From the NCBI GenBank assembly GCA_030613505.1, contig JAUWLW010000008.1:1-64000 (forward strand): 64,000 nucleotides of DNA, given 5' to 3'. Position numbers and translations under genes: made by a program. This document shows, piece by piece, positions 41,572 to 50,777 of the stretch (positions are counted from its first letter, which is position 1; each line of letters starts with the position of its first letter). The notes under the pieces are model-generated. The model made no database searches. It was not told where the DNA came from and saw nothing but the letters and a program-made list of their open reading frames with translations. This DNA is from Candidatus Zixiibacteriota bacterium (lineage in GTDB: Bacteria; RBG-13-66-14; B26-G2; WVWN01).

Positions 41572-42315
41572 CTAGTTGAACAACGCCTTGACGCTACCGA
41601 ATGACGTCGGCACTATACTCGTAGAATACGGACGGGCGCCAATGTCCTTACCGCCTTCGCCGGCACCTCTACAGGGTGAACTCTCGGCGAGGTCGAAATC
41701 GTTGTTCTCGAAGTTTTCAAATAACGGGTCCTTGTGGATCTCGCCCGTGCCCGGTTTGGGAACAAAACTGTTCCACACGTGTCCTCAACCTACGCACAGG
41801 TACATGTAGTTCCCGCCGGGATTACTATCTACGTCGTTATACAGGATTGTAAGCGTAGGAGTGTTCTCGTGGCGCGCGACGCCGTATTTGACGTTACCCC
41901 AGATTATGTTGTTCTTGATGACGGCCGTCGAGCTCAACCAGACTACGACGCCCATGTTCCCTTTGCAAATCGTATTGCCTTCGATTAAGGCTTTAGCCCC
42001 TTCGTATACGGCTACCGCTCCGCTATACTCGTTGCAGTTGATAAGGCAGCAACCGGTGATATGAAGGTCCGTTCCGTATCCGGCGGCGTAAACCGAACCA
42101 TCCTTCAGATCGCACAACGCGCCGTTGCCGCGTATGCAAGACTTCTTACCCTTTAGTACGTCGCAACGACCCGTATATACCTCGTTAGGGTCAAGCACTA
42201 GAAGTTTGTCGTATCCTTCCCCAGGTCCCGCTTCGTCGTACGCTTGTTGGAGGGTCTTGGCAAACGTAACAGATACCGCAAGCGTTAGTGCCAACAATAC
42301 GACGGAGTAACGCAT
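41572..42315 (-). CDS. Secreted beta-helix protein, candidate selenoprotein copy 1 (in-frame TGA at codon 177)
   Basis: I read this as one gene through the TGA at 41785-41787. Signal peptide (SVVLLALTLAVSVTFA), then a Cys-rich right-handed beta-helix with repeats such as ITGCCLIN, NTICKGNMGVVVW and AVIKNNIIWGN. Then comes C174-V-G-U177, and 70 more codons (PGTGEIHKDPLFENFENNDF...SSPCRGAGEGGKDIGA) that match the other two copies, ending TSFGSVKALFN. The DPLF...SPC...DIGA tail is normal for secreted beta-helix proteins, so the protein is incomplete without it. ATG start with AAAGGAGGT. A CxxU motif suggests redox chemistry outside the cytoplasm; function unknown. If TGA were a stop, the product would be a 176-aa truncated helix. 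Confidence 0.8.
41759..41774 (-). promoter_or_regulatory. SECIS-like hairpin, copy 1
   Basis: GGAACA-GTTT-TGTTCC, a perfect 6-bp stem with a 4-nt loop starting with G. The loop begins 16 nt after the TGA, within the range known for bacterial SECIS elements (short stem-loop just downstream of UGA, G early in the loop). Confidence 0.6.
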
Positions 42316-42409
42316 TTTTATCGACCTCCTTTTTACTACTTTTACCCTCTTTACGAACCGCGCCGGTTACAACGATTTTAATCACGGCCCGTACGAAATA
42401 CTCTAATTA

Positions 42410-42438
42410 TTTATAACATCGGCCCAGTCTCAAGACAA
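42410..42438 (-). promoter_or_regulatory. Promoter of selenoprotein-candidate copy 1
   Basis: TTGTCT-N17-TATAAA with a TG extension before the -10 (GATGTTATAAA). Predicted start near 42403, leaving a 5' leader of about 88 nt. The GATGTTATA block recurs before copy 2. Confidence 0.55.
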
Positions 42439-42462
42439 GCTAAATCGACACGTAATAACAGT

Positions 42463-42489
42463 AAAAAAGAGGGCTTGCGCCCTCTTTTT
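42463..42489 (-). terminator. Terminator of selenoprotein-candidate copy 2
   Basis: AAAAAGAGGGC-GCAA-GCCCTCTTTTT on the minus strand, the same stem-loop as in the other copies, 22 bp after the stop. Confidence 0.85.
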
Positions 42490-42510
42490 AAGCGCGAGTG
42501 CGTCAACTTG

Positions 42511-43239
42511 TTATTTGAAAGACGCTTTTACGCAGCCCAGCGAAGCCGGCGCTACACCCGTACCGTACGGCCGGCCACCCATGTCTTTACCGTTCTCGCC
42601 AGCGCCTTTACAGGGCGAATTCTCCGCGAGGTCGAAATCGTTGTTGTTGTAATCCTCGAAGAGAGGATCTTTATGTATTTCGCCTGTACCCGGTTGTGGA
42701 AGGAAACTTTTCCACGTACCGCCACCTCAACCGGGGCACCAATACATATAGTTCCCTTTGGCGTTATTGTCCAAGTCGTTGTAGAGAATCGTCGGTGACG
42801 AGGTCTCGTCCCGGGTGATGCCGTAGTCGTTACCCCATATAATATTATTTTTGATCGTCGCCTGGCCTTGCCAAACCCTAACGCCCATCTCGCTCTTGCA
42901 TATCGTATTACCATCCACCAAGGCTTTGGCGCCGTTGTCGGCCCCAATCGCTACACCGCCGTTTATCAAACAACAGCCCGTAATCACGAGTTCGGTACCG
43001 GCTTGCGACGCGCACACCTGGCCATTCTTCGGGTCGATCAACGCGCCGTTGCCGCGGATGCAAGATTTCTTGCCCTTTAATACATCGCAACGACCCGTAT
43101 ATACCTCGTTAGGGTCAAGCACTAGGAGTTTGTCGTACCCTTCGCCCGGAGGCGCCGCGTCGTACGCCTCTTGGAGAGACTTCGCCCACGCCGCGGGCGT
43201 AACGAGCGCCAGAGCTACGATAAATGCTATATAGCGCAA
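42511..43239 (-). CDS. Secreted beta-helix protein, candidate selenoprotein copy 2 (in-frame TGA at codon 171)
   Basis: Paralogue of the flanking copies. TTG start with AAAGGAGGTGA; signal peptide IAFIVALALVTPAAWA; the block YDKLLVLDPNEVYTGRCDVL is identical to copy 1. Beta-helix rungs include NTICKSEMGVRVWQGQATIK and NNIIWGNDYGI. The motif C168-P-G-U171 is followed by 71 open codons (GGGTWKSFLPQPGTGEIHKD, then DPLFEDYNNNDFDL, SPCKGAGENGKDMGG) to a TAA at 42511. The ORF track ends at the TGA (42727) and misses the tail. The tail ends in ASLGCVKASFK, a variant of the shared C-terminal motif that adds a Cys. Total 242 residues. Confidence 0.8.
42691..42721 (-). promoter_or_regulatory. SECIS-like hairpin, copy 2
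   Basis: Two stacked helices: CGGT...ACCG outside and GTGGAA...TTCCAC inside, with loop AAGTTTCC. The loop begins 17 nt after the TGA. The inner stem differs in sequence from copies 1 and 3 while pairing is kept. Confidence 0.58.
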
Positions 43240-43319
43240 CGTCTATCACCTCCTTTGCCGTCGTCTTCTTCAGACTCAACAACGTTCAACGCGTTTACCT
43301 AATCGCGCGTGTTTATTAA

Positions 43320-43347
43320 ACTATAACATCTCCCCTTTTAAAAACAA
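43320..43347 (-). promoter_or_regulatory. Promoter of selenoprotein-candidate copy 2
   Basis: TTGTTT-N16-TATAGT with the TG extension (GATGTTATAGT), the same block as in the copy 1 promoter. Confidence 0.5.
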
Positions 43348-43372
43348 GGTAATTAACCCTACTTACCCCAAG

Positions 43373-43400
43373 AAAAAAAGAGGGCTTGCGCCCTCTTTTT
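43373..43400 (-). terminator. Terminator of selenoprotein-candidate copy 3
   Basis: AAAAAGAGGGC-GCAA-GCCCTCTTTTT on the minus strand, followed by more T; 23 bp after the TAG stop. Confidence 0.85.
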
Positions 43401-43422
43401 CGTTCCGGAACTATTGGCGTTC

Positions 43423-44181
43423 CTAGTTGAATAAAGCCTTTACCTTGCCGAAGGATGTCGGCGTTATAGCCGTGCGGAACGGCTTCCCGCCCATATCCTT
43501 GCCGCCTTCGCCGGCGCCCCTGCACGGGGAACTCTCGGTCAAGTCGAAGTCGTTATTCTCGAAGTTTTTGAATAACGGGTCCTTGTGGATCTCGCCCGTG
43601 CCTGGCGTTGGTACGAAGCTGTACCAAGTGCCGCCACCTCAACCCGGGCAGAAATACATGTAGTTGCCGCCGTAGTGGGAGTCGACGTCGTTGTAGAGGA
43701 TGTTCAGCGTACCGGTATACTGGTGTTTGGCGATGCCGTACATCGACCCGCCGCTCTTGTTATTCTTGAAGATGATGTTGTTCTTCACAGTAGCGGAGGA
43801 ATACGCCCAGATGTAGAGGCCGAGCCCGTTTTTACAGATCGTATTTCCGTCGATGTTCGCGGTAGCGCTATCGGCAACGTAGATCGCGCCGAAGGTACCG
43901 CCATTTATCAAACAGCAACCCGTAATGTCCAGTTGGGTACCGGGCTGAGCAACGAATACCTGGCTGTCGCCGAGGTCGCAAAGCGCGCCGTTACCGCGAA
44001 TGCAGGACTTCTTGCCGATCAAAACACCGCACCCGCCGGTATACGTCGTATTAGGATCGAGCACAAGGAGCTTGTCGTAACCTTCGCCGGCACCGGCCTC
44101 GTTGTAGGCCGACTGCAACGTTTTCGCCACGGCCGCGGGGGCTATAAGCGCCAGTGCCAATAAAACGACTAAATAACGCAA
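43423..44181 (-). CDS. Secreted beta-helix protein, candidate selenoprotein copy 3 (in-frame TGA at codon 181)
   Basis: First transcribed of the three in gene order. TTG start with a near-perfect AAGGAGGTGA; signal peptide LVVLLALALIAPAAVA. The helix domain keeps CIRGNGALCDL, ITGCCLINGG and NTICKNGLGLYIW. The motif C178-P-G-U181 is followed by 71 open codons to a TAG at 43423 (GGGTWYSFVPTPGTGEIHKD, DPLFKNFENNDFDL, SPCRGAGEGGKDMGG, TPTSFGKVKALFN). The ORF track shows only the part before the TGA, since the tail lacks a start codon. Total 252 residues. Extracellular location follows from the signal peptide; substrate or partner is unknown. Confidence 0.8.
43604..43635 (-). promoter_or_regulatory. 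SECIS-like hairpin, copy 3
   Basis: GGCG outside pairs with CGCC, TTGGTAC inside pairs with GTACCAA, loop AGCTTC with G at the second position. The loop begins 18 nt after the TGA. Compared with copy 1 (GGAAC/GTTCC), the stem here is GGTAC/GTACC, an A-T to T-A swap on both sides. Confidence 0.62.
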
Positions 44182-45102: not shown

Positions 45103-47343
45103 CTAAGGCGCCGCCGTCCCCGACAGAAGCCGCTCGAGGCGGCCTCGCCGTACGGGCGTGAATTTCTTTATAATAACGACCGTATTATCCACGCGCTCGG
45201 ATATCTCCTCCGGGACCGATTTAAACAACAATTGCTCCCACGCGCCGCCCTTGCGTGCGCCCAGCACGATGAGGTCTTTCGGTAGTATCTCCGCCATCAA
45301 CGCTTCAGTTACTTCTTCGGCGTAGAGCACGTCCCTTTCGAAACCGCGTCGACACTCCACGTCGCAAACTACCTCGTCCAAAAGGTTCCTTGCCGTATAC
45401 CGCGGCACGCCGAATTCATCGGCCGCGCCGGATACCGTAACGACGCGCAACTTGGCGTCGAAGCGGTCGGCGAACGCCGGCGCCAGTTCCGCGGCGAGGC
45501 GGGAGTTGGAGCTGCCGGAAACCGCGACCAGTATGCGGCCTACGTCCGTCAAATCGTCGGCGCCGGGCCTCACTACCGCGACATCACACGGGGCGTCGTC
45601 GAGCACGGCGTCAATAACCGTGGCCAACAACCTGTCGCCCAAGGTCCGTCGGCTGACGCGTCCCATAACTATGAAGTTGCAATTCTCTTCGCGGGCCGTC
45701 TCCAAAATGCCGTGCGAAAGGCGGTGCGATATCTTAATCATTCGCTTGACGTCGTCGACGCCCTCGCGCTCGCAGATCTTCTCGGCCAACATGAGCTGGG
45801 AACGAAAATCGCCGGCCCGCGCGACGCCACGTTCGAGGGGTACGTAATACGGAACCTCCACTACGGACAACAATAATATCTCGCCGTCGAACTTCTTCGC
45901 GATGGCCGCGGCAACCGTCACCAACGACTTCATCGTATCCGGGTTGCCGACGGGGACCAGGATTTTATATTCCTTACGCGCTTGCTTGGCCATCAAGTAC
46001 CGAATGACCCGCTCGCGCTCGAGCGTCCGTTTGGCGCCTTTCGAATAAGCTAAATATACCAATCCTCCCGCGGCCAGATAACAGGTCCCCAAAAGGTAGG
46101 TGTTCCACTCCATGAAGAGCAACATAAGAAGGTTGGAGGCGATGCCTAAGGCCGGTATCAAGTAGCCGAAGGGCAAGCGGAACGGACGTTTAAGTTCCGG
46201 GCGGCGCCGCCGGAGCATTATTACCGAAAAATTGACCACGACAAGGGCGAAGAGTAAGCAAAAGTTCGTGAGGTGCGCTACGGACCGCACCTCGCCTATT
46301 ACCGCGATTATGATCGCCAATCCCGCCGTTGCCGCGATCGCCCAATGCGGCGTACGGAAGCGCGCGTTTACCCGGGCCAAAAACCACGGCATGAAGCCGT
46401 CGCGTGCGATCGCGTACGTGACGCGCGAGGTCGTGAGAACCGCGGCGTTTAGCGCCGAAACCGTCGACAGAACACCCGCGATTAATACGAAGAATAGGCC
46501 GTATCCCCCTAATACTTTCGCGGCTATTATCGCGAGGGGCGCAGGCGCCTCCCCTAAAACTTCGAAATCTATTATCCCAACAGATACCATAATCACAAAG
46601 ACGTAAATTATCGTAGGGATCGCCAGCGCTAACAAGATCGCCCGCGGAACGTTCTTCTCCGGGTTTTTGACCTCCTCCGCCGCGTCCGAGATTTGCTCGA
46701 AACCGAAGAAAGAAATGTAGATGAGCGAGGTGGCGGCGAGGACGCCGAGCGTACCGAACGGCGCGAAATTGTCGAAACGCTCCCACTCCACGAAACGGAA
46801 ACACAATATGACGAATACGACCAGTATCGCGACTTTGCCGAGCGTCAAGAAGGTTTGCGTATGACCCGCTTCTTTCGTCCCCTTAATATTTAGCAGCGCT
46901 AGAAGGATTATAAGGGTCGCGGCCGCGACGGCTCGGTTTAACGTATATGGCAACGCCAACTCGACGAGGGGGGTGAAATGCTCTGCGAACCCGATAGAGT
47001 ACAGGGCCGCGGAGACAACCAGGCCAAAGACCATCGACCAACCGGTGATGAAGGCCGTAAAGCCGCCGATGGCCTCGTGGACGAAGGTATAGCCGCCGCC
47101 GGCGATGGGGATGGCCGCGGCCAGCTCGCAGTACGACAGCGCCGTGAATAGCGTCATGAAGCCGACGATGACGTACGAAACCGTCGCCGCCGGGCCCGCT
47201 GTGCCGGCGGCCAGGCCGGATAGGATGAAGATGCCGGCGCCTATCATCGCGCCCACGCCCAGCATCGTCGCGGCGACGAGGCCCAGCGACCGCGTCAGCT
47301 TGACCTCGTGCTCCTCGCCCGGCAATGGAATTCGCTCAGCCAT
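45103..47343 (-). CDS. APC-superfamily amino acid permease fused to two universal stress protein domains
   Basis: 746 aa. Residues ~15-440 form a 12-TM amino-acid/polyamine transporter with the TM1 signature GVGAMIGAGIFILSG and later FFGFEQISDAAEEVKNPEKNVPRA. Two cytoplasmic Usp domains follow (~457-600 and ~607-735), starting YKILVPVGNPDTMKSLV and VGRILVAVSGSSNSRLAAEL. The first keeps a VMGRVSRRTLGDRLL nucleotide-loop-like sequence; the second ends with LGARKGGAWEQLLFKSVPEE. Such fusions are thought to couple transport to energy or stress state. Amino acid specificity is not predictable. Confidence 0.92.
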   Translation of the reverse strand: MAERIPLPGEEHEVKLTRSLGLVAATMLGVGAMIGAGIFILSGLAAGTAGPAATVSYVIVGFMTLFTALSYCELAAAIPIAGGGYTFVHEAIGGFTAFITGWSMVFGLVVSAALYSIGFAEHFTPLVELALPYTLNRAVAAATLIILLALLNIKGTKEAGHTQTFLTLGKVAILVVFVILCFRFVEWERFDNFAPFGTLGVLAATSLIYISFFGFEQISDAAEEVKNPEKNVPRAILLALAIPTIIYVFVIMVSVGIIDFEVLGEAPAPLAIIAAKVLGGYGLFFVLIAGVLSTVSALNAAVLTTSRVTYAIARDGFMPWFLARVNARFRTPHWAIAATAGLAIIIAVIGEVRSVAHLTNFCLLFALVVVNFSVIMLRRRRPELKRPFRLPFGYLIPALGIASNLLMLLFMEWNTYLLGTCYLAAGGLVYLAYSKGAKRTLERERVIRYLMAKQARKEYKILVPVGNPDTMKSLVTVAAAIAKKFDGEILLLSVVEVPYYVPLERGVARAGDFRSQLMLAEKICEREGVDDVKRMIKISHRLSHGILETAREENCNFIVMGRVSRRTLGDRLLATVIDAVLDDAPCDVAVVRPGADDLTDVGRILVAVSGSSNSRLAAELAPAFADRFDAKLRVVTVSGAADEFGVPRYTARNLLDEVVCDVECRRGFERDVLYAEEVTEALMAEILPKDLIVLGARKGGAWEQLLFKSVPEEISERVDNTVVIIKKFTPVRRGRLERLLSGTAAP

Positions 47344-47504
47344 AGTGCGTCAGGGATTAACTACTTTCGCGAATTATACTAAACGGCGCTAAAAAAACAA
47401 GGTAAATCGGGTTCGACTTCAAACGTGGCTATTTTACTATTAATATTAAATGATACGAAATGATTACAGATTGTGAAAAAACGCGCAATTGCGAAATATT
47501 TTTC

Positions 47505-47533
47505 TTGACTCTCTCTCTCTCTCTTACTATTAT
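47505..47533 (+). promoter_or_regulatory. Promoter with (CT)8 repeat as its spacer
   Basis: TTGACT and TATTAT are separated by exactly 17 bp, and that spacer is almost entirely CT dinucleotides. Start predicted near 47540, upstream of the cluster of secreted-protein genes. Confidence 0.65.
47509..47524 (+). repeat. (CT)8 simple sequence repeat
   Basis: Eight uninterrupted CT units overlapping the end of the -35 box and the promoter spacer. Dinucleotide tracts of this length are prone to slipped-strand mispairing. Confidence 0.95.
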
Positions 47534-47553
47534 ACGGGTTGAAGGTGGTCGAA

Positions 47554-47890
47554 ATGACGGAACTTTTATACAAACCGAAGTATTACGTACACGTATGGCG
47601 GATAGAGGTCGAAAACCCGGTGGACCCGGAGAATTATATCCTTTGCCCTTTCAATTCGATAGTTTTCGTACGAGCACAAACGGACCCCCCAACGGACCCG
47701 CCAGAACGGTAACCGTGTAGAGCTCGACGTTATTTGCGACGGCGGCCGAACGGACCTGTGTTACGCTCAGTACATAAGCGAAGTGTTCGTAGACCCGTGG
47801 CCGTGGAAATTGATATCGGAAATCAGCATGTGGGGCGCGCCGGAAGTAACTACCGAAATAGATATGATAATCCGTTACCGCTTAGCGTAA
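47554..47890 (+). pseudogene. Small gene interrupted by a frameshift at a C6 run
   Basis: ATG at 47554 with AAGGTGG 5 nt upstream gives MTELLYKPKYYVHVWRIEV and runs 52 codons to a TAA at 47710. From just after the C6 run (47685-47690) the +1 frame reads on with protein-like sequence (NRVELDVICDGGRTDLCYAQ, then EVFVDPWPWKLISEISMWGAP) to a TAA at 47888. Removing one C joins the two halves into about 111 residues of beta-rich, Trp/Tyr-containing sequence. No signal peptide and no family recognised. It could be a phase-variable gene, a real decay, or a base-calling error in a homopolymer. It is the first gene after the (CT)8 promoter. Confidence 0.6.
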
Positions 47891-47920
47891 GGGCGAAAAG
47901 TATATACTTAACTTGTACTT

Positions 47921-48748
47921 ATGAGCCGTTTATCTTTAATTGCGGCTACGGTAATGATAGTATGCCTGCCCGAAGCTCGAGCGGGTGTAGGTTCGGTAAT
48001 CTCTTCTTTTGTCGCGGCCTCGGAGAGCGAGCGCCGCAACGCCTGGGCCGCCTACCGCGACCGGCGCGACCTAGAGCACGTTTACGCATTCTGCGACCAA
48101 CCGAACGAGGTCCGAAAATTCACTACTCGCGGTTCGCTTGTCTCCTCCTATAGTATAGAAACGCCGTGGCCCTTACGGGGCACCGACACTACGCACCTGG
48201 GCCCGGGCTATATGGGCCTTTGCGGCGGCGAAAAAGACTTCAAAATCCTCAACCTCGCTACGGGAAAGATTGTATATTCCTACGCTACGTCAATAACGTA
48301 CAATGACTTCTTCTACGACGGTACCCATTACTATTTTAAGCCCTTCTCCGCGGGTGGCTTTTTCTACCGATATACTACTAGCGGTGAATATAAAGGATGG
48401 ATTCACTACGACGGGTACCCGCCGGGGGGATGGTTCGGCGGCTGCGGTTATACGAACCGCTTCGCCGGCGCGGTAGGTTCGTACGTAATTATCGATTTAT
48501 GGTCCCCCGACATAACGGTGGCGTTAACGCATCCTGGAGGGTCGCTGGTCAATGCGTGGCATTCCCCGGGCGCAGGTTTCGGTTCAACGTGCGGCCCGGC
48601 TGCATTCGGTAACTACGGCATCACGTTTTGGGGAATATTCGACTTACGTAGTAGCCGGGATAGTTGGTTATACCAAGTCGATATTTCCGGCGCGGTCCCG
48701 GCGGTAACGCCATCGTCCGTGGGAAAAATAAAGGCAATATACCGCTAA
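47921..48748 (+). CDS. Secreted beta-rich protein with shared C-terminal motif, copy A
   Basis: 275 aa. Signal peptide LSLIAATVMIVCLPEARA, then Tyr/Trp/Gly-rich beta sequence with irregular blade-like repeats (KILNLATGKIVYSYATSIT; VRKFTTRGSLVSSYSIETP), consistent with a small beta-propeller. Four Cys occur in CGG/GCG/TCG contexts. The C-terminus is TPSSVGKIKAIYR, matching the next gene and similar to the three selenoprotein candidates. It begins 30 bp after the frameshifted gene, with a poor Shine-Dalgarno site. No family recognised. Confidence 0.72.
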   Translation: MSRLSLIAATVMIVCLPEARAGVGSVISSFVAASESERRNAWAAYRDRRDLEHVYAFCDQPNEVRKFTTRGSLVSSYSIETPWPLRGTDTTHLGPGYMGLCGGEKDFKILNLATGKIVYSYATSITYNDFFYDGTHYYFKPFSAGGFFYRYTTSGEYKGWIHYDGYPPGGWFGGCGYTNRFAGAVGSYVIIDLWSPDITVALTHPGGSLVNAWHSPGAGFGSTCGPAAFGNYGITFWGIFDLRSSRDSWLYQVDISGAVPAVTPSSVGKIKAIYR

Positions 48749-48754
48749 ACGTTA

Positions 48755-49513
48755 ATGGGTAAGGTACTTTTAATTTATTTTATATTAGCTATTACGCCGG
48801 CCGCCGCCCTCGCTGTTTTAGGCGAAGTAGTAAATTCTTTCCCCGCGCCCGACGAAAAGCCGCGGGCTCTCGCCCGAAGCCCGGAATCCCTTTTCGTTTA
48901 TTGCTACACCTGGGGCGATAATATCTGGCGTCTAAACCCAACCAACGGGTCGGTCGTCAGCTCGTTTCCGTCGCCGTTCGGCGTCTTTACTACCGGCCTA
49001 AGCTATTCGTGGGGCGGGAACCTATGGATCGGTAACTGGTATAATAACTACGTATATAGATGTGCCGCGTCTAACGGGAGTATATATGGTTCGTGGTATG
49101 CAGGCCACAAACCCCGAGGTTTGGCTGTTGAATGCGCAGGCGACGGGGGCTTTAACCCGCGAGCCATATTTTCGTCGGACACCAGCCCACGGTACGTTTG
49201 GCGTCACGACCTAACGAGCGGGAGAATCTACTCGAGCTTTAAACCTGGCGCACACATCTTAGACATTGCGTGGGATTGGCGGAACAAAGTCGTTTGGGGC
49301 GGGTACTCGTCGACTATTTACGGGTACCGTACCGCCGGGGCTACCGTTTTCTCTTTCCCCTCCCCCGGCACCTCGCCATACGGCTTTGCTTATTACGCGG
49401 AACATTTGTACGTAGCGACTTACGAGAAGAATTTTATATGGCAAATACATTGCCCCCGCTTTGAACCCGTAACCCCGTCGTCAATAGGTAAAATTCGGAC
49501 TTTGTATAAATAG
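48755..49513 (+). CDS. Secreted beta-propeller-like protein with shared C-terminal motif, copy B
   Basis: 252 aa, 6 bp after the previous gene. Signal peptide VLLIYFILAITPAAALA, followed by about five YVTN/PQQ-like blades with a recurring xVxSFPSP phrase (WRLNPTNGSVVSSFPSPFG; TAGATVFSFPSPGTSPYGF; WRHDLTSGRIYSSFKPGAH). The end, TPSSIGKIRTLYK, repeats the motif of the preceding protein. Probably a distant paralogue of it. Likely exported and surface-exposed or released; partner unknown. No Shine-Dalgarno element is evident. Confidence 0.74.
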   Translation: MGKVLLIYFILAITPAAALAVLGEVVNSFPAPDEKPRALARSPESLFVYCYTWGDNIWRLNPTNGSVVSSFPSPFGVFTTGLSYSWGGNLWIGNWYNNYVYRCAASNGSIYGSWYAGHKPRGLAVECAGDGGFNPRAIFSSDTSPRYVWRHDLTSGRIYSSFKPGAHILDIAWDWRNKVVWGGYSSTIYGYRTAGATVFSFPSPGTSPYGFAYYAEHLYVATYEKNFIWQIHCPRFEPVTPSSIGKIRTLYK

Positions 49514-49556
49514 GCCTGATTAAAAATTCCCTAGCGGAGCTCCTAAACCCAAGCTA

Positions 49557-50777
49557 TCATCGAGTACTTTTATCCGTTCGCTCAACGTGGATATAGAACT
49601 CGGGCCTCGTGGGGGTACCGAAGATGCGAAGCTCGGCGACGCCTACGCCGGCGTAACTGACGCGGACCTCCCCCACGAACATATTCACGAGGTTTTGCAG
49701 CGTCATATTTTCAGAACGGAACGTTAGCTCGAGCGACAACTTCGACGCGCTCCCGCCGAAGTGCCACCGCGCCTCCGCGGCCCGGCACGAACCCTCGTCG
49801 ACCGTGAAGTCCGCGTTGTGGAGCGTGAATTGGAAGTTAACGTCCTCCAGCCGGACCTGTACGTTGTCCGGCGCGAGGATTAGGTTGCCGTGGCTCAGCC
49901 GGCCCGTTGCGCGGTGGTCGAGCTTGCCACGCCCCCACGTCAACGTCCCCTCGAACGTCAAAATACCCTCGGCCTCAAGCAGGTACCCGGGCTTCCCCAC
50001 CCACGGCAGGACGTTAACCACCTCCACAGCCTCCACGCGGTACTTCGCCGAGCCTTCCTTGGTTACGAAAGAATGGCCCGCGGAGAACTCGAAAGAGCGC
50101 TGCCGCGTCGTTTTCCCTTTGAGCGACGTTTCTATTTCTTCGTCTGAAATACGCCCGCCGACGTCGACGTCGCGTAGTATTATGGTATCGCCGGCGTCGC
50201 CGCGAAAGACAACGCGCCCCCGCGTTGCCGCGAACTCGAAATCGAACGGTGCCCGCTTCCCCTTTCGCGGCTTCGCTTCCCCGGCCTCACCCACTGCCGT
50301 GTTAACCGCCGGCGCGGGGGCGGCCGGTGCAGCAGGCGACGGTAATACGGCCCCCGGTAATACCGCGGCCCCGCTGCCCTCACCCGCCGCCGTTCCCCAA
50401 GGCTTCCGCAATACCGGCCGGCTTAACTTTAACGGATAGAGGTATATAGTATATTCTTCCGTAGTAACTTCCTTAACTAAGCGAGCGTCGAACCGCAACA
50501 GAAGAACCGCCGACGGCCGGAGTTTTACGCGGACGCGCGACGCCTCGCCGCTTATAAATGAACGCGGCCTTTTAACGAAAACCAGGTCGCGAACCTCGAC
50601 GCCCAACGGGAATACGTACCTCACCGCGCCTATGGTTACAAAGTCCCCGAAACGTTCCGTTATGGCTTCGCCGACGCGCCGGGGCAGCCATACGTTCAAT
50701 AGCCGGTAGCCGACGAGCGCCGCGACCGCGACGAAGAATAGAACGACGAAGCCGATGGATGCCCTTTTGGCGCTCAC
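49557..50777 (-). CDS. AsmA/TamB-like envelope protein
   Basis: 406 aa. One N-terminal TM helix (IGFVVLFFVAVAALVGYRLL) anchors a long beta-rich domain interrupted by an Ala/Pro/Val low-complexity linker (~130-165). The layout and the pattern of the closing part (LTFRSENMTLQNLVNMFVG) resemble the AsmA/DUF748/TamB superfamily, lipid-transfer bridges of the periplasm, though this one is short. The GTG start overlaps the uvrC TGA stop by 4 bp (GTGA), so it is co-translated with uvrC. Family call is by architecture only. Confidence 0.6.
   Translation of the reverse strand: MSAKRASIGFVVLFFVAVAALVGYRLLNVWLPRRVGEAITERFGDFVTIGAVRYVFPLGVEVRDLVFVKRPRSFISGEASRVRVKLRPSAVLLLRFDARLVKEVTTEEYTIYLYPLKLSRPVLRKPWGTAAGEGSGAAVLPGAVLPSPAAPAAPAPAVNTAVGEAGEAKPRKGKRAPFDFEFAATRGRVVFRGDAGDTIILRDVDVGGRISDEEIETSLKGKTTRQRSFEFSAGHSFVTKEGSAKYRVEAVEVVNVLPWVGKPGYLLEAEGILTFEGTLTWGRGKLDHRATGRLSHGNLILAPDNVQVRLEDVNFQFTLHNADFTVDEGSCRAAEARWHFGGSASKLSLELTFRSENMTLQNLVNMFVGEVRVSYAGVGVAELRIFGTPTRPEFYIHVERTDKSTR

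Follow-up and report, generated by a model that had tools for sequence, protein, structure and literature searches.

Does the CT repeat at positions 47505-47533 act as a switch on the genes behind it? The repeat lies in a stretch of 64,000 nucleotides from a Candidatus Zixiibacteriota genome (hereafter the window), where it separates the two boxes of a sigma-70-like promoter. In our reading, which we hold with a probability of about 0.72, the promoter is phase-variable, belongs to the known kind in which a repeat lies in the spacer, and drives an operon of three cistrons.

The promoter lies on the plus strand. It consists of the -35 element TTGACT (47505..47510), a pure (CT)8 tract (47509..47524) and the -10 element TATTAT (47528..47533). 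The whole region reads TTTTTC-TTGACT-CTCTCTCTCTCTCTTAC-TATTAT-ACGGG, with its last base at 47538 of the window. The initial annotation had given this promoter as TTGACT-N17-TATTAT, and both its sequence and its positions were correct. It had also described the (CT)8 tract as forming the spacer. Seven CT units (14 bp) lie inside the 17-bp spacer, the first unit is the final two bases of TTGACT, and the trinucleotide TAC fills the rest. Because of this overlap, a change in the number of CT units keeps the -35 element intact and alters only its distance to TATTAT. The repeat is thus placed between the -35 and -10 boxes, as in phase-variable promoters with a repeat as spacer. The tract is well beyond what chance would give: 100 rounds of dinucleotide shuffling of the window yielded none of 12 nt.

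We counted TTGAC-TATAAT pairs in four genomes, with the reversed pattern as control. The counts were 92 against 7, 95 against 4, 69 against 3 and 83 against 11 (339 against 25 in sum), and they show that promoters of the class TTGAC-N18-TATAAT are in heavy use in the genus. Spacer lengths in G003, one of the same-genus genomes, were 17 bp in 46 cases, 16 bp in 11 and 18 bp in another 11; lengths of 15 and 19 bp were found once each. The window's own genome was sampled over 468 kb with the looser box TANNNT. There, 57 pairs were spaced by 17 bp (one of them double-counted, since two stretches overlap), 7 by 15 bp and 10 by 19 bp. Each of the spacings other than 17 between 10 and 27 bp had 2 to 22 pairs. 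This sharp peak in the species' own promoters bears out the earlier statement that the spacing is optimal at the present repeat number. The (CT)8 promoter stands at the species optimum of 17 bp, and changes in unit number take it away from that optimum. Since spacers of 15 and 19 bp are at background in the species, gain or loss of one CT unit should disable the promoter, possibly in a graded rather than a complete manner. That a one-unit change would be harmful, as had been proposed, is well supported for this organism by these background counts, although the drop in transcription may be partial. A weaker -10-like hexamer, TACTAT (47525..47530, plus strand), overlaps TATTAT and is now 14 bp from the -35 element. 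With 9 CT units it would be at 16 bp; with 7 units, TATACG would be at 18 bp. Either may leave residual activity.

The first cistron (47554..47709, plus strand) has 51 codons and starts with an ATG behind the Shine-Dalgarno sequence GAAGGTGG. Its codon use resembles that of a coding sequence up to about 47660 in one frame, and again between 47708 and 47890 in another, so that a continuation in a different reading frame can be drawn at 47663..47890 (plus strand). The shift from one frame to the other falls in 47661-47707, a GC-rich stretch that contains a C6 run as well as a near-duplication of 12 bp. The interruption could be decay, an assembly error or a second switch, and because of it the operon may be partly decayed. 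A search of 15 genomes for relatives of the first cistron found only itself.

The second and third cistrons are close together and on the same strand as the first. They are predicted to encode a 275-aa exported protein (47921..48748) and its 252-aa exported paralogue (48755..49513). Signal peptides were recognized in both products by inspection of the translations. The family to which they belong has 9 copies in this genome and 6-12 per genome in the genus. Although no Pfam family scored above cut-off for it, a profile of 21 family sequences matched the surface-layer beta-propeller 1l0q_A with an E value of 7.1e-12. This match to a solved member points to a YVTN/NHL-type beta-propeller family resembling surface-layer proteins. 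A structure prediction for the 47921 protein from two input sequences gave a pLDDT of 29, and the model was unusable. The initial annotation had called the downstream genes exported and probably surface-exposed. For the 47921 and 48755 proteins export is supported by the signal peptides, and the family type suggests possible surface exposure; the description does not fit the first cistron, which is frame-interrupted and has no signal peptide.

We also looked at the promoters of this gene family. In a set of 19 genes paralogous to that at 47921, 7 have a promoter-like TTGAC site with 17-bp spacing upstream; three of the 19 are uninformative either way, because the scoring was done on their wrong strand. 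One would therefore expect this class of promoter at 47505. None of those seven sites has a dinucleotide tract.

The promoter and its three cistrons form a lineage-specific segment of 2.16 kb (47412..49570). It is flanked by a divergent conserved gene for an amino-acid permease with Usp domains (45103..47343, minus strand), which is not part of the switch. The segment is absent from two genomes of the same genus, G001 and G003. In G001, the permease gene and the next conserved gene are only about 107 bp apart, and the gap in G003 is similarly short; the G003 contig matches the public record WVWN01000062 (Candidatus Zixiibacteriota). In G002, a run of N in the assembly lies beside the permease gene at the expected place of the operon. 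From its absence in G001 and G003, the operon appears to have been either recently gained in the window's lineage or lost in those of the two relatives. Elsewhere in the window, three similar exported proteins are encoded in tandem on the minus strand (41785-44181), and one of them matches NosD/beta-helix.

CT/GA tracts were searched in the whole 2.86-Mb genome, and the census of other repeats covered 810 kb of it. Only two CT/GA tracts of at least 12 nt were found in the genome, and both are directly 3' of TTGAC. The chance that a given tract abuts TTGAC in that orientation is about 0.0015. The second tract, TTGACA-(GA)9.5-TACTTAATAT, is on the minus strand at L007:5245-5263 (G000:C96:43244-43262), where 19 bases of GA repeat separate TTGACA from TACTTAATATGG. 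It lies upstream of the gene for an orphan exported protein of 180 aa, which has a signal peptide and for which no relatives were found in the genus. The best-scoring -10 box here is TAATAT, 23 bp from the -35 box. This locus is predicted to be OFF, because its spacer is three units longer than 17 bp. Common ancestry of the two tracts was rejected: they are opposite in strand sense and share no similarity beyond the repeat and about 10 nt (TTTTCTTGAC), so the second tract arose separately.

A third spacer repeat was found at L173:4490-4520 (G000:C96, about 49990-50020), where TTGACA-N8-G10-TAGACT has a spacer of 18 bp that would become 17 bp with one G fewer. Few long runs of G occur in the sampled 810 kb, and this G10 run is one of them; it precedes a predicted secreted S8 protease with a C-terminal end like a sorting domain. 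Some other tracts in this genome are not spacers. A C11 tract (L165:4513-4523, minus strand, G000:C15) is inside a lipoprotein coding sequence directly after the lipobox and is a possible translational on/off switch. C19 and C12 runs are near each other in a very GC-rich stretch (L186:12036-12076, G000:C70). Two (CT)5 tracts on contig C7 were discarded as purine-rich stretches near start codons.

Three other explanations of the locus have to be weighed. One is that TTGACT/TATTAT is not the promoter of the operon, so that transcription starts elsewhere and the tract is there by chance or as a structural element. Matches to promoter boxes are by themselves weak evidence: a scan of 4 kb gave 6 sigma-70-like sites compared with 2.8 in shuffled sequence. 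Against this, TTGACT/TATTAT is the sole plus-strand candidate in 46000-50000, with a score of 10 of 12 bases that is tied for best. It is on the matching strand, 20 nt upstream of the ATG with its Shine-Dalgarno sequence. The 17-bp class is enriched genome-wide, and paralogues carry promoters of the same class. We regard this explanation as quite improbable. Even less credit is due to the idea that the repeat number is an artefact of assembly, with a miscalled repeat and a true spacer other than 17 bp. Metagenome assemblies can miscount repeats, and the reading frame is interrupted about 150 bp downstream. However, a 16-bp tract is well within a short read, and a miscount that yields exactly 17 bp would be a coincidence.

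The more serious rival accepts the promoter but takes the repeat as a passenger, a CT tract that grew by chance in a spacer with little constraint on its sequence and, under working mismatch repair, is stable enough for the site to work like any ordinary promoter. In favour of it, the spacer is exactly 17 bp at present, the tract is only 16 bp, and the 17-bp promoters of other family members do without repeats. Eight dinucleotide units are rather few for a fast switch, which counts against phase variation, as does the possible partial decay of the operon. However, spacer length is kept within narrow limits, and drift would not be expected to leave an unstable repeat there. In this genome, promoter spacers account for both CT/GA tracts and for one of the few long runs of G in 810 kb, and the length of the second CT/GA tract already departs from the optimum. 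We consider a passenger repeat unlikely, though clearly less so than the other two explanations, and prefer the phase-variable promoter.

We then scanned 385 genomes for TTGAC followed by 15 alternating W/S bases. The scan gave 32 forward matches compared with about 24 in a reversed control, which is known by count only. This loose pattern as a whole is not clearly enriched, and the pure repeats alone stand out. There were six of these, two in the window's genome and four in three distant genomes. In G122, a CT repeat spans 17 bp to a perfect TATAAT and a GA repeat spans 19 bp to a poor TAACCT. Both adjoin TTGAC and precede exported cysteine-rich proteins (L110 and L127; G122:C2 and G122:C4), and this CT and GA pair mirrors the pair in the window's genome. 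Close relatives of G122 had no pure repeats of the TTGAC-adjoining pattern. G029 has a CA repeat with a 19-bp spacer. In G041, a GACA tetranucleotide repeat lies between TTGACA and TATAGT (L113, G041:C20:193258) before a protein with a signal-like N-terminus, and its spacer of 25 bp is two units above 17.

In all six pure repeats, the top-scoring -10 box is at 17 bp plus whole repeat units. The proteins encoded behind all four repeats of the other genomes have an export signal, as judged by a crude hydrophobicity score and inspection and in small numbers. Matches without a repeat rarely show such -10 spacing or an export signal; only L108 has a comparable exported protein downstream, and it is itself an imperfect octamer repeat. 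Three further candidates were set aside: a CT match in G070 was too short and had no good -10 box, L147 had no convincing -10 box, and L158 is presumably a ribosomal RNA fragment.

Spacer repeats had been put forward as known phase-variation switches, with hifA/hifB of Haemophilus as the example, and published systems of that kind include this one (PMC2651432) as well as porA and tp0126 (PMC7864442). At the divergent hifA/hifB promoter of Haemophilus influenzae, (TA)9-11 was proposed to change the distance between -10 and -35, and length variants were observed (van Ham 1993; described in PMC2651432). The two loci share a dinucleotide repeat between promoter boxes, and hif is upstream of surface-structure genes. 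The hif repeat, however, is TA in a region common to two divergent promoters, whereas the repeat at 47505 is CT, serves one promoter and is known from one genome. In tp0126 of Treponema pallidum, a poly-G tract between -35 and -10 varies in length, and reporter assays showed best expression at 17 bp (PMC7864442). The position of the repeat and the optimum are the same as here, and the tp0126 product is an outer-membrane protein. Its repeat is mononucleotide, however, and the G10 locus (L173:4502) is the nearer match to it. For porA of Neisseria meningitidis, PMC7864442 discusses a poly-G spacer that sets expression of a surface protein around an optimum of 17 bp. This control by spacer length resembles that proposed here, but the porA repeat is mononucleotide and its effect on expression is known from experiment. 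In nadA of Neisseria meningitidis, repeat number controls the strength of an adhesin-gene promoter; in contrast to the locus at 47505, that repeat is flanked by repressor operators and shifts distal promoter elements rather than the -35/-10 spacer (PMC2791445).

From these observations we propose that a sigma-70 promoter with a slippage-prone CT-repeat spacer would serve as a stochastic expression switch for the three-cistron operon. The sequence, and the spacing that the species itself favours, indicate that the promoter is ON at eight units, with its spacer of 17 bp. As the DNA is replicated, CT units would be gained or lost. At 15 or 19 bp, transcription of the exported beta-propeller genes would then fall until the tract reverts, and a gained unit may leave weak activity through TACTAT. 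The selective value is a matter of speculation; it could perhaps be avoidance of phages or grazers, or varied attachment.

Repeat-driven phase variation has been described mostly in host-adapted pathogens, where it is explained by immune escape. For Zixibacteria, a search of the literature on phase variation returned nothing relevant. New here are the lineage, the presence of two CT/GA spacers within a single genome, of which one is apparently ON and the other apparently OFF, and the fact that the layout recurs in distant genomes. Whether TTGAC-abutting repeat spacers (CT, GA, CA, GACA and, nearby, G) are recurrent, independently evolved stochastic switches for exported proteins in several lineages of uncultured, probably free-living bacteria, outside host-associated pathogens, is a question on which we place even odds. 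Three spacer repeats in one uncultured lineage, along with loci of the same layout in three genomes far removed from it, suggest that this strategy may serve bacteria other than pathogens too.
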